From positions 1-64,000 of the forward strand of contig JAFGXS010000011.1 in NCBI GenBank assembly GCA_016936505.1: a DNA stretch of 64,000 nt, written 5' to 3'. The first letter of the stretch is position 1. Each line of letters starts with the position of its first letter. Below, piece after piece: positions 2,727 to 10,997 of the stretch. Source of the stretch: Bacteroidales bacterium (GTDB taxonomy: Bacteria > Bacteroidota > Bacteroidia > Bacteroidales > F082). The notes beneath the pieces were generated by a model. That model was not told the DNA's origin. It did not search any database and worked only from the letters and a program-made list of their open reading frames with translations. The position numbers were made by a program, and so were the translations under genes.

Positions 2727-3383
2727 TTAATTAAACATTTCAGGAATTTCTCCCTCAACAATAAGAGAAGCCCCTGTCTTTTCAATAATTTCTTCCACAG
2801 AAACTCCAGGTGCTCTTTCCAGCAATTTAAAACCTTCTTGAGTTACTTCAATTACAGCCAAATCGGAAACGATCTTTTTAACACAAGAAACCCCTGTAAG
2901 AGGAAGCGTGCAATGCTTTATAAGTTTTGGGTTCCCGTCTCTGTCAGTATGGGTCATTGCAACAATAATGTTTTTTGCTGAAGCTACCAGATCCATAGCC
3001 CCACCCATTCCTTTTACCATTTTGCCCGGAATTTTCCAACTGGCGATATCCCCTTTTTCACTCACTTCAAAAGCTCCTAAAACAGTTAAGTCAATATGAC
3101 CGCCACGGATCATAGCAAAGCTGGTAGCCGAATCAAAAAAAGCTGCTCCTTTCACATAAGTAACTGTTTGCTTACCAGCATTTATCAGATCAGCATCTAC
3201 CTTCTCTTTTTCCGGAAAAGGTCCAATTCCTAACAATCCGTTTTCTGATTGTAAAACCACCTCCATCCCGTCAGGAATATAATTAGCGACAAGTGTCGGA
3301 ATACCAATTCCCAGGTTCACATAATAACCATCCTGAAGTTCCAAAGCAATACGTTTTGCTATTCCATTTTTATCTAAAGCCAT
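2727..3383 (-). CDS. scoB: 3-oxoacid CoA-transferase subunit B
   Basis: [32 protein letters not shown] motifs; downstream of subunit A. Confidence 0.93.
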
Positions 3384-3411: not shown

Positions 3412-4104
3412 CTAATTGCTTGTTGTAGCAAACTCAATTCTTTTCTCATAATTTTCGCCCTTGAAGATCCGCTGAACAAATATTCCCGGAGTATGAATCA
3501 TATTTGGATCTAATGTTCCTGCAGGAACCAACTCTTCAACCTCTGCAATTGTAATTTTACCGGCCATTGCCATCATATTATTAAAGTTATTGGCTGTATG
3601 GCGATAAATCAGATTACCGGAAGTATCTCCTTTCCATGCTTTTACGATAGCAAAATCGGCATGCAATGCCTTTTCCATGACATACATTTTACCATTGAAC
3701 TCTCGGGTCTCTTTTCCTTCTGCCACTTCAGTTCCATATCCTGCAGGTACATAAAATGCAGGAATTCCTGCACCACCGGCACGACAACGTTCTGCTAATG
3801 TTCCCTGTGGGTTCAACTCAACTTCCAATTCTCCAGATAATAACTGTCTTTCAAACTCGGCATTTTCACCAACATAAGATGAGATCATCTTTCTGATTTG
3901 ATGTTTTTGCAATAAAATTCCCAAGCCAAAATCGTCAACCCCTGCATTATTTGAAATACAGGTTAGTCCTGTAATACCTGACTCAGACAGTGCATTAATT
4001 GTTTTTTCAGGAATTCCACACAAACCGAAGCCACCCAACATCAAGGTCATGCCATCCTCAATGCCATTAATGGCTTCCTGTGCATTTTTGACCACTTTAT
4101 TCAT
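3412..4104 (-). CDS. scoA: 3-oxoacid CoA-transferase subunit A
   Basis: [36 protein letters not shown] motifs. Confidence 0.93.
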
Positions 4105-4128: not shown

Positions 4129-5274
4129 TTAACAACCAATCTGACGCGAAATTACCAAACGCTGAATTTCCGAGGTTCCTTCACCTATTTGTAACAATCT
4201 TTGATCACGATAAAAACGTTCAATTGGATAATCCTTCATCAAGCCGTAACCACCATGTATCTGAACGGCCTCATCGGCCACTTCACGGGCAATTTCAGAA
4301 CAATACAACTTCGACATGGCAGCTTCTTTTGAGTAGGGTCTTCCTTCATCTTTTAGCCAACAGGCTTTGTACAAAAGATTCCGGGCAAGTTCAATTTTCA
4401 TCGCCATATCGGCAAGTTTGAAGGAATTAATCTGAAACCTGGAAATCTGTTTACCAAACTGTTTACGCTCCTGAGCATAACTCAACGCCATTTCGAAGGC
4501 TCCCTGTGCAAGACCTAATCCCATGGCCCCGATAGATAAACGGCCACCATCCAGTGTATGCAACATAATATGTGAACCTTCACCAACTTTTCCCAAAAGA
4601 TTTTCTTCAGGAACATGCACATCATCAAAATACAATTCAGAAGTATCGGAAGCCCTCCACATCAGTTTTTCATGCATAGGAACCTGCTTAAATCCTTTAG
4701 TTCCACTTTCTACAATAATCGTTGTAAATACCTTTTTCCCGTTCTCCTCACCTGATACAGCCTGAACCGTACATCCTTTCGAGATATCAGACGCACCGTT
4801 GGTAATAAATATTTTTGAACCATTGATAATCCATTCCTTGTTTTTAAGAACCGCTGTAGTTTTTGAACCACGGGAATCGGAACCGGCACCAGGTTCAGTA
4901 AGGCCAAAGCTCCACACCCCTTTTCCGGTACACAGCTGAGGAATATATTTCATTCGTTGTTCTTCGGTTCCATATACATAAAGAGGACCTATTCCCAATG
5001 AATTATGAGCAGCCACTGTAGCCGCTTGCGAACCATCTACACGAGCCAACTCTTCAACGGCAATAATGTAAGACAAAGTATCCAAACCATGACCACCATA
5101 CTTTTGAGGAATTGTCATTCCAAACAAACCAAGTTCTCCCATTTTTTTGGTCAGTTCATAAGAAAACTCTTCTCTATCATCCAGCTCCTTGGCAACAGGT
5201 TTTATCTCACGTTCTGCAAAATCCCTTACGGTTTCGCGAATCAAATTCTGTTCCTCACTTAAATCAAAATTCAT
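4129..5274 (-). CDS. Acyl-CoA dehydrogenase (SCAD-type catalytic residue pattern)
   Basis: FGLTEPGAGSDS, ERKQFGKQISRFQ, IHGGYGLMKDYPIERFYRD, IGEGTSEIQR motifs. Confidence 0.93.
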   Translation of the reverse strand: MNFDLSEEQNLIRETVRDFAEREIKPVAKELDDREEFSYELTKKMGELGLFGMTIPQKYGGHGLDTLSYIIAVEELARVDGSQAATVAAHNSLGIGPLYVYGTEEQRMKYIPQLCTGKGVWSFGLTEPGAGSDSRGSKTTAVLKNKEWIINGSKIFITNGASDISKGCTVQAVSGEENGKKVFTTIIVESGTKGFKQVPMHEKLMWRASDTSELYFDDVHVPEENLLGKVGEGSHIMLHTLDGGRLSIGAMGLGLAQGAFEMALSYAQERKQFGKQISRFQINSFKLADMAMKIELARNLLYKACWLKDEGRPYSKEAAMSKLYCSEIAREVADEAVQIHGGYGLMKDYPIERFYRDQRLLQIGEGTSEIQRLVISRQIGC

Positions 5275-5292
5275 TATATCTATTAATTAAAT

Positions 5293-7284
5293 TTACTCTT
5301 CTGTTTTTAATGTAATCAATTGCAAATCTGTATCAACACGATCACCCTCTTTTACATTTATTTTTTCAACTATTGCATCCTGCATTGCAATAATATTATT
5401 CTCCATCTTCATGGCTTCAACTACCAACAACAAACTACCTCTGTGTACCTTGTCACCCACATTCACATTCACTTTAATTACTTTTCCCGGCATAGGTGCA
5501 AATAAACTACCCTTTCCTGAAGCATTTTCTCCTGCAGAATAATCTTCAAGATCATTGAGTTCATCTGTCCTATCCAGAACAAATGAAACACCATGCACTG
5601 TAATAAAATATTGTTGCTTCTCATTAACAGAAATATAAGCTGTGATGTCCTCTTGAAAGATACGAAAATCTATCTGATGTTGTGAATATTTAACCAAAGA
5701 AACTTCCATCTTTGTCCCGCTAAGATCAAATTCATAACTATCATAATTATGCTTTGTCAGTTCCAACCTCATAGTTTCGGTTCCCAGAATAAACGAAAAC
5801 CGTAAAACAATCCGCCAAAACCCCATTGCATTCCAAACATCAGTTGAAGCTTTATGCTTGTGATTATTCAATATATGAAGAGCCAATGCTAATACAGCTG
5901 CACTTTTCCCTCTTTCATTTCTAAAAAAATTAATCTCGTTTACAATTTTTGCAGTATGTTCTTCACAAAATTTGGTAGAAACCTGATTCTTTTGATAAGC
6001 CGGATGCTCCAGTAAATATTTAAGGTAAGAAATATTAGTTTTCACACCTTGAATTACATAGTGCTGTAGCGAGTCAATACTTTTATCAATGGCTTCCTGT
6101 CGGTTCTGACCCCAAACCACCATTTTACTGATCATAGGGTCAAAAAGGCTCTGAACCTCAACTGCTGTATCAACCGAAGAATCTATTCTGATCCCGTCTC
6201 CCACCGGTTCCTGATAGAAACTCATTTTTCCGGGGGCAGGCAAAAAGTTATTTTCAGCATCTTCGGCATAAATACGGCATTCTATAGCATGTCCGTTTTG
6301 TTTCAAATCATCCTGACTTAAGCTTAAAGGATAACCCTGAGCAACCCTGATCTGTTCTTCCACTAAATCTACACCAGTAACCATTTCCGTAACCGGATGT
6401 TCAACCTGAATACGGGTGTTCATTTCCAGAAAATAGAAATTCAAATGATTATCAACAAGAAACTCAACTGTTCCGGCACTATTGTATCCAACAGCTTTTG
6501 CAATGGAAACAGCTGCATTTCCCATTTTATTTCTTACTTCAGGAGTTAAAGTAGGCGAAGGGCTTTCTTCAATAATCTTCTGATAACGGCGCTGTATAGA
6601 ACATTCTCTTTCAAAAAGGTGAACCACGTTTCCATAGTTATCCCCCATCACCTGAATCTCAATATGCCGGGGCTCTTCAATATATTTTTCAATATAAATA
6701 CTTCCATCGCCAAAATAGTTTTTTGCTTCTCTTGACGTTGACTCCAGCATTTCTTTAAGATTTGAATCATCATAAAGAATCCTCATTCCTTTACCTCCAC
6801 CACCGGCTGCCGCTTTAATCAAAATGGGGTAATCTAAAGTTAAAGCCTTTTTTATCAATTCGGTCGGGGTTCCTACCACACCTTCTGTCATGGGAACATT
6901 GAGTTTATTCACAAAAGCTCTGGCCTCTATCTTATTTCCCATGAGTTTCATGGCTCTGGTATCGGGTCCGATATATACAACACCCTCCTTATCGCAAGCA
7001 TCCACTAGTAAGGCGTTTTCAGACAAAAAACCATATCCCGGATGCAAAGCATCACAATCAGTTTCTTTTGCCGCCTGAATAATTTTATCCACGTTCAGAT
7101 AAGATTCACTGAGTTCAGCTCCGCCAATCAGAACGGCTTCATCGGCCATTCTAGTGTGTAAAGCTCCTTTATCCGGTTCAGAATAAACTGCTACGGTCTT
7201 TATTCCCATTTTTTTGGCAGTCTTCATAATACGAACCGCAATCTCACCCCGGTTGGCAATCAGTATTTTTTTAAACGATTTCAT
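5293..7284 (-). CDS. Biotin-dependent acyl-CoA carboxylase alpha subunit (biotin carboxylase + BCCP; methylcrotonyl-CoA carboxylase-like)
   Basis: N-terminal KKILIANRGEIAVRI, ATP-grasp KAAAGGGGKGMR, EMNTRIQVEHPVTE; C-terminal biotinylation motif VVEAMKMEN. Confidence 0.93.
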   Translation of the reverse strand: MKSFKKILIANRGEIAVRIMKTAKKMGIKTVAVYSEPDKGALHTRMADEAVLIGGAELSESYLNVDKIIQAAKETDCDALHPGYGFLSENALLVDACDKEGVVYIGPDTRAMKLMGNKIEARAFVNKLNVPMTEGVVGTPTELIKKALTLDYPILIKAAAGGGGKGMRILYDDSNLKEMLESTSREAKNYFGDGSIYIEKYIEEPRHIEIQVMGDNYGNVVHLFERECSIQRRYQKIIEESPSPTLTPEVRNKMGNAAVSIAKAVGYNSAGTVEFLVDNHLNFYFLEMNTRIQVEHPVTEMVTGVDLVEEQIRVAQGYPLSLSQDDLKQNGHAIECRIYAEDAENNFLPAPGKMSFYQEPVGDGIRIDSSVDTAVEVQSLFDPMISKMVVWGQNRQEAIDKSIDSLQHYVIQGVKTNISYLKYLLEHPAYQKNQVSTKFCEEHTAKIVNEINFFRNERGKSAAVLALALHILNNHKHKASTDVWNAMGFWRIVLRFSFILGTETMRLELTKHNYDSYEFDLSGTKMEVSLVKYSQHQIDFRIFQEDITAYISVNEKQQYFITVHGVSFVLDRTDELNDLEDYSAGENASGKGSLFAPMPGKVIKVNVNVGDKVHRGSLLLVVEAMKMENNIIAMQDAIVEKINVKEGDRVDTDLQLITLKTEE

Positions 7285-7313: not shown

Positions 7314-8111
7314 TTATTTATTCCAGAACGGTTTTCTTTTTTCCAAAAATGCAGCCATTCCTTCCTGTCCTTCTTCAGAAGCCCTCAAACGGGCAATTAA
7401 TTCCGAAGTATATTTATAAACATTGTCCTCTGTTTCTGATGATAATTTCTCTATCAGTATTTTTGTTTCTCGAACAGCATTAGGTGCTGCTGAATGAAAA
7501 TGGGCAACCCATTCACTCAGTTTTTCATGTAACATATTTTCCGAAACTACCTCATTCACTAAATTCCATCTAAGTGCTTCCGCTGCGTCAAATCTTTTTC
7601 CGGTAAGCATAAGGGTTTTTGCTCCGGTTTCCCCAATTCTGTTCATTACAAATGGCGCTATAGTTGCAGGGCTAATTCCCAGTTTTACTTCGCTAAAAGC
7701 AAACTTTGTTTCTGAAGATGCCAATACAATATCACATGCAGACAACAGACCGTTTGCTCCTCCAAAGGCTACACCATGTACCATAGCTATAGTGGGAACC
7801 GGGCAATGATAAATTGACAAAAATAAATCAGCTAATTTCTTTCCGTCATTTACATTTTCTTTAAAACCATTTCCTGCAATTTCCTTCATGTAATTCAGGT
7901 CGGCACCAGCACAAAAACTTTTACCTTCACCTCGAATTACTACTACCAGAGGATTCTTTTTTGCAACCTTTAACGATCTGAAAATTGCTGTTAACTCTCC
8001 TATCATTTCGCGATTCATTGCATTATGAACCTCCGGTCGGTTCAAACTGATTTCTAGATAACTGTCTTTAAAATCAATAAGTATTGTTTTGGGCTGCTGT
8101 TGAATATCCAT
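7314..8111 (-). CDS. Enoyl-CoA hydratase/isomerase family protein, methylglutaconyl-CoA hydratase-like
   Basis: Crotonase fold motifs GEGKSFCAGADLNYMK, HGVAFGGANGLLSACDIVLA, FAFSEVKLGISPATIAPFV (LiuC-like), within the carboxylase cluster. Confidence 0.88.
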   Translation of the reverse strand: MDIQQQPKTILIDFKDSYLEISLNRPEVHNAMNREMIGELTAIFRSLKVAKKNPLVVVIRGEGKSFCAGADLNYMKEIAGNGFKENVNDGKKLADLFLSIYHCPVPTIAMVHGVAFGGANGLLSACDIVLASSETKFAFSEVKLGISPATIAPFVMNRIGETGAKTLMLTGKRFDAAEALRWNLVNEVVSENMLHEKLSEWVAHFHSAAPNAVRETKILIEKLSSETEDNVYKYTSELIARLRASEEGQEGMAAFLEKRKPFWNK

Positions 8112-8121
8112 TTTTTATCCA

Positions 8122-9774
8122 TTACATTCTGAAAATACCGTATTTCTGATCCGGGAATTTATTATTCAGCGACATGGAAATCCCCATAGCCAGTACCTTT
8201 CTTGTATCAACCGGGTCAATAATTCCATCATCCCAAATACGGGAAGTGCTGTATAAAGCAGCCCCTTCTTTTTCATATTTTTCCAGAATTGGTTTTTTAA
8301 GCTTTTCTATTTCTTCCTGTGTCATTTCCTTTCCCATAGCTTGGTACTGCTCCTGTTTTACTGTTGCCAAAACTGTGGCGGCCTGTTCTCCACCCATAAC
8401 AGAAATTTTGGCATTGGGCCACATAAACAACAAACGGGGATCATAAGCACGACCTGCCATTCCGTAATTTCCAGCGCCGAATGATCCACCAAAAATCACC
8501 GTAAATTTGGGCACATTAGCATTGGAAACAGCATGAACCATTTTTGCTCCATCCTTGGCAATTCCTTTTCTTTCAAATTCTTTTCCTACAATGAAACCTG
8601 TTATGTTTTGCAAAAAAATCAATGGAATTTTTCGTGCCGTACAAAGCTCAATGAAGTGGGTCACTTTTAAAGCAGATTCGGAAAATAACACTCCGTAATT
8701 GGCAATAATTCCAACAGGAAAGCCCATAATGCGGGCAAAACCTGTTACTACAGTCGTAGCATATTTAGCTTTGAACTCCTGAAAGCGACTTCCATCCACC
8801 ATTCGCATAATGATCTCATGGGGGTCAACCAGTTTTTTTAGGTCTACGGGTACAATTCCATATAATTCTTCAGGATTGTAAGCAGGGGGTTCCGGTTCAG
8901 CAATATCAAGCATTTGTTTCTCCCTGAACTCCAGATTTTCGAAAATATTCCTGCAAATCTGAATGGCGTGCTTATCGTTTATAGCAAAATGATCGGCCAC
9001 GCCGGACATTGAGGTGTGCACTTCAGCGCCTCCCAGTTCTTCTGCTGTAACTTCTTCTCCGGTTGCAGCTTTTACCAGCGGTGGCCCTCCAAGGAAAATC
9101 GTTCCTTGCTCTTTTACAATAATAGTTTCATCGCTCATTGCAGGAACATAAGCCCCACCAGCTGTACACGAACCCATCACAATCGAAATTTGAGGAATTC
9201 CCATAGCCGACATTCGTGCCTGATTGTAAAAGAACCTACCAAAATGGTTGGCATCCGGGAAAACAGTATCCTGCTCGGGAAGGAAAGCTCCGCCAGAATC
9301 TACCATGTAAACACAGGGCAAATTATTTTCCATCGCAATTTGTTGCGCTCTTAAATGCTTCTTGATGGTGTAACGCATGTAGGTTCCACCCTTAACTGTA
9401 GCATCATTAGCTATGATCACCGTTTCTTTTCCATGAATTACTCCCACTCCGGTAATAATTCCTGCAGAAGGAAACTCATCATTATATTGTCCGTAAGCAG
9501 CCAAAGGAGATAACTCCAGAAAAGGAGTCTCCTGGTCAATCAGTAAATCAATTCTTTCTCTGGCAAGTAATTTACCCCTACTCTTGTGCCTTTCTACTGA
9601 TGAGATAGAGCCTCCGACAGTATTTTTTCTTAAGATTTGTTTGTAATCATTCAGAATATCAAGAAAAGCTTTTTTATTGCTTTGAAATTCTTTGGAATGA
9701 ACATCTATTTTTGTGGTTAATTTTTGCAATGGTTGAAAATTTAAAATTCTACCTTGTAAGCTGAACAGGTTCAC
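8122..9774 (-). CDS. Acyl-CoA carboxylase beta subunit (methylcrotonyl-CoA carboxylase-like carboxyltransferase)
   Basis: [56 protein letters not shown] motifs; exact start codon uncertain. Confidence 0.92.
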
Positions 9775-9986: not shown

Positions 9987-10997
9987 ATGCAATATCCCAA
10001 AAAAGTAGTTATTGGAGACATCACCGTTCGCGACGGATTTCAGCACGAAGAAAAATTTATTCCAACAGAGGCCAAAGTCTGGGTACTTGAAGAACTTATT
10101 CTCAGTGGAGTCAAGCATCTTGAAGTAACTAATTTTGGTAACCCAAAGGGTATGCCACAGTTTAACGATGCCGATGATTTATTTAAAAAGATACGATCCA
10201 GTAAAAGGGTTAAGGATCAATTAGATGATGTGGTTTTAACTGCTGTAACCATCAGGGAAAAAGCCATTGAAAGAGCTATTGAAGCAAAAAAAGAAGGATA
10301 CGGGCCCGACAGGATCTTACTAATGGTTTCCACTAGTGAATCGCATCAAAAAAAGAATTCGGGTCTTACTTTAAGTGAATACTGGAAAATGGCCGAAGAA
10401 TGGATTCCTAAAGCACATGATGCAGGAATTACTGTGAACGGAACGGTAAGTACCATTTGGGGATGCCCCATTGAGGGACCAACCAGGCTAGAAGACGCAA
10501 TTGATTTTACAAACCGCTGGTTCAACATAGGAGCCAATGATGTTGAACATGCAGATCATGACGGCTCTGCATCACCCGACAGAGTTTACAAATATTTCTC
10601 AATGCTGATGGCAAGCGTTAATAATCCACACAAACAAATTGCACACTTTCACACCACCCGAGGCTGGGGATTAGCCAATGTACTGGCCGCACTTCAGGCT
10701 GGAGTTACAAATTTTGAGTCAACTTTAGGTGGTATTGGCGGACAGCCCGCAAATTTTGTCGACGGAGTGCCTGTTGCCGGGACCGGAAGTTATTATTATA
10801 ACGATGCTAATGAAGTAGGACTAGTTTGTACTGAAGATATGTCGGTTATGATGGATGAAATGGGCATCGATACCCAGCTGAATATAGACAGGATCTTAAA
10901 AACAGGAAAAATGGTTGAGAAAATAGTTGGGCGTCGTTTACGTTCGAAAACCATTACTCAGGGCCGCATTCCCAAGTCATTAACCGGGCGTAAATAA
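9987..10997 (+). CDS. DRE-TIM metallolyase, HMG-CoA-lyase-like (signature Cys absent)
   Basis: N-terminal TVRDGFQHEE and metal-ligand HFHTTRGWGLANVLAALQAGV resemble HMGL, but the loop reads LGGIGGQPAN instead of GLGGCPY/F. Confidence 0.8.
   Translation: MQYPKKVVIGDITVRDGFQHEEKFIPTEAKVWVLEELILSGVKHLEVTNFGNPKGMPQFNDADDLFKKIRSSKRVKDQLDDVVLTAVTIREKAIERAIEAKKEGYGPDRILLMVSTSESHQKKNSGLTLSEYWKMAEEWIPKAHDAGITVNGTVSTIWGCPIEGPTRLEDAIDFTNRWFNIGANDVEHADHDGSASPDRVYKYFSMLMASVNNPHKQIAHFHTTRGWGLANVLAALQAGVTNFESTLGGIGGQPANFVDGVPVAGTGSYYYNDANEVGLVCTEDMSVMMDEMGIDTQLNIDRILKTGKMVEKIVGRRLRSKTITQGRIPKSLTGRK

Follow-up and report, generated by a model that had tools for sequence, protein, structure and literature searches.

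Hydroxymethylglutaryl-CoA (HMG-CoA) lyase (HMGL) is regarded as dependent on a single Cys of its mobile loop. In the 64,000-nucleotide stretch of a Bacteroidales genome analysed here (the window), a gene beside a leucine degradation cluster encodes an HMGL homologue with Gln in that place, which raises the questions of whether such a protein is real, what it is related to, and what reaction it might carry out. The open reading frame (positions 9987-10997, + strand) runs from an ATG start through 336 amino acids without interruption and holds all the motifs quoted for it in the original prediction (TVRDGFQHEE, HFHTTRG and FESTLGGIGGQPAN). Its product, called here the Q protein, matches Pfam PF00682 (HMGL-like domain, DRE-TIM) with 119.5 bits (E 2e-34) against a gathering cut-off of 29, and its AlphaFold2 model (mean pLDDT 87.9, less certain in the loop 251-270) retrieves with Foldseek top PDB matches that are all HMGLs (1ydo, the best, 6nds and 2cw6), with a TM-score of 0.92 by target length against 1ydo. 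The curated models for isopropylmalate, citramalate and homocitrate synthases place it far under their cut-offs, and it reads GGQPAN where these synthases have GERAGN. Its best NCBIfam match is the HMG-CoA lyase model NF004283, at 190.7 bits and thus under the curated cut-off of 246, as is a relative of the same type (L084, 185.1 bits). The fold is therefore that of an HMGL, in a protein with neither the signature Cys nor the metal-binding Asn of HMG-CoA lyases and with a score below the curated threshold for them. Promoter scans upstream of the gene returned nothing above chance.

The Gln stands where it had been predicted: counted from the start codon, the CAG at 10743-10745 (+ strand) is codon 253, and in phmmer alignments with the HMGLs of B. 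subtilis, A. baumannii and human, Gln253 falls on the Cys of GLGGCP. A sequencing error, a pseudogene or a lone mutant can be ruled out, since 100 relatives, all with intact frames, have Gln253 without exception, and this fixation, in a family with at least 506 related loci in a scan of genome contigs, is more than chance. The rest of the active site was mapped by phmmer alignment to human HMGL and the residue list of PMC6941031, in which Cys266 is critical and Asn275 is a metal ligand. The catalytic Arg and the metal Asp are retained in R15-D16-G-F-Q-H20-E21 (10029-10049, + strand), where His20 occupies the human N46 position, and two metal ligands in H220-F-H222 (10644-10652, + strand), so that human R41, D42, E72, H233 and H235 have their counterparts in R15, D16, E46, H220 and H222. 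D190 is the equivalent of human D204. Substituted in the same alignment are C266 by Q253, Y167 by T153 and the metal ligand N275 by L279, together with S75 by N49, T205 by H191 and N46 by H20, three positions that we take to have roles in the HMGL site. Leu279 ends a rebuilt loop (QPANFVDGVPVAGTGSYYYNDANEVGL, residues 253-279, 10743-10823, + strand) that carries an insertion of about 16 residues. The new features (Q253, N49, H191, N256, L279, T153, H20 and the insertion) are fixed in 100 of 100 relatives from Bacteroidota, and the core R15, D16, E46, D190, H220, H222 and E283 is invariant across 100 Q-type sequences; the other DRE-TIM proteins in the alignment (HMGL, Cys-type Bacteroidota HMGL, GGHP type, LeuA, CimA-like and MhpE) all have Asn at position 279. 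The change of the Cys, on which the original prediction turned, is thus real but does not stand alone, the positions of the metal Asn, S75, T205 and Y167 having changed with it. Regarding the proviso that another Cys might supply the function, Cys281 can be dismissed, being Ser in most relatives; Cys160, invariant in 40 relatives, may have a role, though not a new one, as it corresponds to a second Cys found in ordinary HMGLs too (GCP motif). Asn256 of GIGGQPAN has the same spacing as the Asn of the isopropylmalate/citramalate synthase loop GIGERAGN, and may for this reason have taken over metal binding.

The best 80 of the at least 506 loci all belong to Bacteroidota or to MAGs named Chlorobiota, and a search of plasmids yielded only matches below 60% identity. 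Q-type genes occur in 75 of 295 genomes of an order-wide sample, and only in the window's own genome in a phylum-wide one (1 of 297), whose listed members are nearly all of high completeness. Alignment and phylogeny, which the original prediction had called for, set the Q type apart: in a tree of 36 DRE-TIM proteins it forms one clade (support 100/100) with a long stem. Its nearest group consists of plasmid-borne homologues with GGHP in place of GGCP, a sister relationship that is only moderately supported (84/77), and an AU test does not reject the alternative grouping with the Cys-type HMGLs of Bacteroidota (p 0.10). The GGQP and GGHP groups have in common a His at the human N46 position (RDGxQH), which is absent from all Cys-type sequences aligned; its presence in both Cys-less groups could reflect one inherited event or a compensating change. 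The Q protein was not found nested within a characterised HMGL clade that naturally lacks the Cys: searches turned up no characterisation of the GGHP group, the nearest without it, and literature searches found no description of the Q-type group. The Q protein is, then, a real, single-origin branch of the HMGL family, undescribed in the literature searched, with a rebuilt active site and, as seen next, a tie to leucine degradation.

That tie begins with the neighbourhood, although the gene does not occupy the terminal position of the cluster that had been attributed to it: it lies on the + strand and the cluster on the - strand, with about 210 bp between them, and being transcribed divergently it stands beside the leucine cluster, not at the end of the operon. 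The divergent neighbour is the carboxyltransferase subunit of an acyl-CoA carboxylase (8122-9774, - strand), read as the beta subunit of methylcrotonyl-CoA carboxylase (MCC), MccB; its GTG start is probably annotated too far upstream, giving 550 amino acids here and 535 in most relatives. Behind it on the same strand follow an enoyl-CoA hydratase read as 3-methylglutaconyl-CoA hydratase (7314-8111), a biotin carboxylase with biotin carrier read as the MCC alpha subunit, MccA (5293-7284), an acyl-CoA dehydrogenase read as isovaleryl-CoA dehydrogenase, IVD (4129-5274), and subunits A (3412-4104, TIGR02429) and B (2727-3383, TIGR02428) of a 3-oxoacid CoA-transferase, both above their model cut-offs. 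Such a gene set is the usual make-up of leucine/isovalerate degradation clusters, and the substrates of the individual enzymes, including the roles read for hydratase and dehydrogenase, are presumed from this context and from general knowledge of such clusters.

The association extends well beyond the window. Genes for MCC, hydratase, IVD or Cys-type HMGL lie within 9 kb of the Q gene in 33 of 42 well-covered loci, and in the order-wide sample MccB (E<=1e-150) is found in 73 of 75 Q-positive against 54 of 220 Q-negative genomes, counts uncorrected for relatedness; the two exceptions belong to one family, in whose third member MccB is more distant and narrowly misses the threshold. Several genomes (G005, for example) carry the Q gene away from the leucine operon, and the genome-level association with MCC persists where the genes stand apart. 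Across 11 genomes, median identity to the window's proteins is 81% for Q, 82% for IVD and 81% for MccB, whereas the Cys-type HMGL reaches 51% and is less conserved than Q in 11 of 11; evolution as slow as that of the core pathway enzymes speaks against decay, and against a role as a loose accessory. A link to mevalonate found no footing, the C-terminal domain of HMG-CoA synthase being absent from 11 genomes examined. Eight Q-positive genomes (G392, G414, G433, G532, G553, G582, G607 and G616) have only a distant MccB, with 46-49% identity compared to the usual 60-90%, which suggests that the same step is supplied by an alternative carboxylase.

Does the Q protein then replace the HMGL of the pathway, as the original prediction had implied? 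In the window's genome it does not, for a short Cys-type HMGL (GGLGGCP) is encoded on another contig (G000:C40:71848-72699), and most relatives likewise carry both: in the order-wide sample the two occur together in 67 genomes, Q alone in eight and the Cys type alone in seven, and within the leucine cluster of relatives their genes are commonly adjacent. Eight genomes hold two copies of the short Cys-type gene (G376, G380, G384, G397, G432, G490, G500 and G531). Replacement is true of a sister clade within the window's genus, where six genomes without the Cys-type gene (G002, G003, G004, G005, G008 and G011) group as a single clade of the Q tree (99/96). There the Cys-type gene was lost and the pathway stayed, which leaves Q as its only HMGL homologue: those examined contain at most three PF00682 members (LeuA, a CimA-like protein and Q), and G005, a single contig of 99% completeness with exactly these three, has a complete leucine block. 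Q also persists without the Cys-type HMGL in G392. The prediction of a divergent or functionally different lyase thus holds as far as sequence goes, given the separate clade, its long stem, the invariant site changes and the score of 190.7 against 246, while the replacement it implied is incomplete. A CitE-type protein as the true HMG-CoA lyase of Q-only genomes was considered and rejected, as the PF03328 matches examined resemble either citrate lyase beta, with a CitF-like gene adjoining, or pyruvate kinase; these are the only PF03328 members in G005, so that no lyase of the Rv2498c type is evident there. In the window's genus, an apparent fusion of a citrate lyase acyl-carrier (CitD-like) with CitE is followed by the CitF-like gene (L241:1156-2367 in G005, L233:423-1610 in G000). 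Pathway genes can also persist without any HMGL homologue: 48 of the 127 MccB-positive genomes of the order (L247 and L248 among them) lack both proteins, and 29 genomes checked, mostly of this kind, gave no HMGL-type substitute, only synthase, aldolase and carboxylase-type matches. Hence the argument that Q is the only candidate left is not strict, and another protein may handle HMG-CoA in this order. At least one of the MccB-positive genomes with neither HMGL type, G014, has an IVD-MccA-ECH-MccB block.

Taken together, the HMGL fold, the invariant core, the pathway linkage, the slow evolution and the Q-only clade with a full operon in G005 make it very probable that the Q protein is an active enzyme of the leucine/isovalerate pathway. 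It would be a metal-dependent C-C lyase dedicated to this pathway and working without the signature Cys. Leucine carbon would pass through isovaleryl-CoA, methylcrotonyl-CoA and methylglutaconyl-CoA to HMG-CoA by way of the enzymes of the divergent operon; the Q protein, in parallel with the separate short Cys-type HMGL where this is present, would most likely cleave HMG-CoA to acetyl-CoA and acetoacetate, and the CoA-transferase would then activate the acetoacetate. The functions of the missing Cys and Asn might fall to Gln253, Asn256, His191 and/or His20. Of the single substrates that can be named, HMG-CoA appears slightly likelier than any other to be the main one, its chances falling a little short of even, and the same tentative grade applies to the reading as a whole. 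Against it weigh the loss of the equivalents of both the critical Cys266 and the metal ligand Asn275 (PMC6941031), the S75N and T205H changes, close enough to the catalytic residues to make a different substrate possible, the carriage of both proteins by 67 of 75 genomes, for which plain redundancy is no explanation, the 48 MccB-positive genomes without either, and the placement next to the GGHP group, which is not firm. The main rival, somewhat less probable, is that the Q protein serves the same pathway as a lyase (or a reverse Claisen/aldol synthase) for some other acyl-CoA or enantiomer, for example 3-hydroxyisovaleryl-CoA (giving acetone and acetyl-CoA) or the other enantiomer of HMG-CoA, and leaves ordinary HMG-CoA to the Cys-type HMGL. 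Such regular co-occurrence suggests non-redundant jobs, several invariant changes (N49, H191, T153, L279 and the long loop) lie around the site's substrate end, and a stereochemical division of labour has a precedent in the (R)-specific leucine route of mycobacteria, with its different lyase (PMC6689899); yet the pathway persists with Q alone in the six-genome subclade, and nothing among the neighbouring genes hints at acetone or any other product. In its strongest form, a shade less probable again, a new residue set (Gln253, Asn256, His191 and His20) would stand in for both Cys and metal Asn, the enzyme would use a substrate, or an enantiomer, outside the range of known HMG-CoA lyases, and Bacteroidota would then run two different lyases side by side.

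Two further readings are improbable. The loss of both Cys and metal Asn, and the frequent adjacency of the two genes, would fit a catalytically dead paralogue serving as partner or regulator of the Cys-type HMGL, but the catalytic Arg and the metal Asp, His and His are invariant, the protein evolves as slowly as the core enzymes and it outlives its supposed partner in the genus subclade and in G392, which makes this the least probable of the alternatives. Hardly more likely is a link to leucine of neighbourhood only, with the true role elsewhere, for instance as a malate-type synthase: the synthase-like spacing of the Asn in GIGGQPAN and the position of the gene away from the operon in several genomes, G005 among them, would agree with it, but the association with MCC at the genome level does not depend on proximity, Foldseek and HMMER place the protein with HMGL and not with synthases, and it lacks LeuA's C-terminal domain. 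To return to cleavage of HMG-CoA as the preferred reading, it would make the Q protein a Cys-independent lyase; if HMG-CoA is not cleaved, bacterial leucine degradation contains a step yet to be assigned. With Gln fixed and the pathway retained, this family of at least 506 loci amounts to a natural experiment on the Cys mechanism of HMGL, and automatic labels of hydroxymethylglutaryl-CoA lyase in Bacteroidota cover two different proteins.

Set beside known systems, the Q protein shares with the HMG-CoA lyases of B. subtilis (YngG, 1YDO), human (HMGCL, 2CW6/3MP3) and A. baumannii (6NDS) the fold (TM-scores of 0.90-0.93 by target length), the equivalents of R41, D42, E72, D204, H233 and H235 and the context of leucine degradation, and differs from them in the substitutions and insertion described above, in an identity of only about 26-30% and in falling under the NCBI cut-off. 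The short Cys-type HMGL of Bacteroidota belongs to the same pathway cluster and likewise scores under the NF004283 cut-off (196-205 bits against 246), but unlike Q it retains GGLGGCP and the metal Asn, forms a separate clade (100/100) and evolves much faster. The (R)-HMG-CoA lyases Rv2498c and PA0883 (PF03328; PMC6689899) are, like Q, a non-standard solution for the HMG-CoA step of leucine degradation, in their case from the unrelated CitE-like family. The GGHP-type homologues (on plasmids; Bosea, Shinella, Rhodococcus opacus, Cupriavidus campinensis and Gemmobacter) resemble Q in lacking the Cys, replaced here by His, in RDGxQH and in some NPK and GYGP features. Unlike Q, they retain the metal Asn and the Ser, score above the NCBI cut-off for HMGL (Bosea, 273) and sit in an HMGL-ECH-CaiB-ECH-ACS operon (two hydratases, a class III CoA-transferase and an acyl-CoA synthetase), so that the Q protein, with Gln instead of His and different neighbours, is not one of them. 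The GGHP operon is conserved on alphaproteobacterial plasmids (L158/L162, L163, L165 and L166), where the GGHP protein is annotated as HMG-CoA lyase, with homologues also in L160 and L164, and GGHP-like proteins occur in Cupriavidus and Rhodococcus as well.
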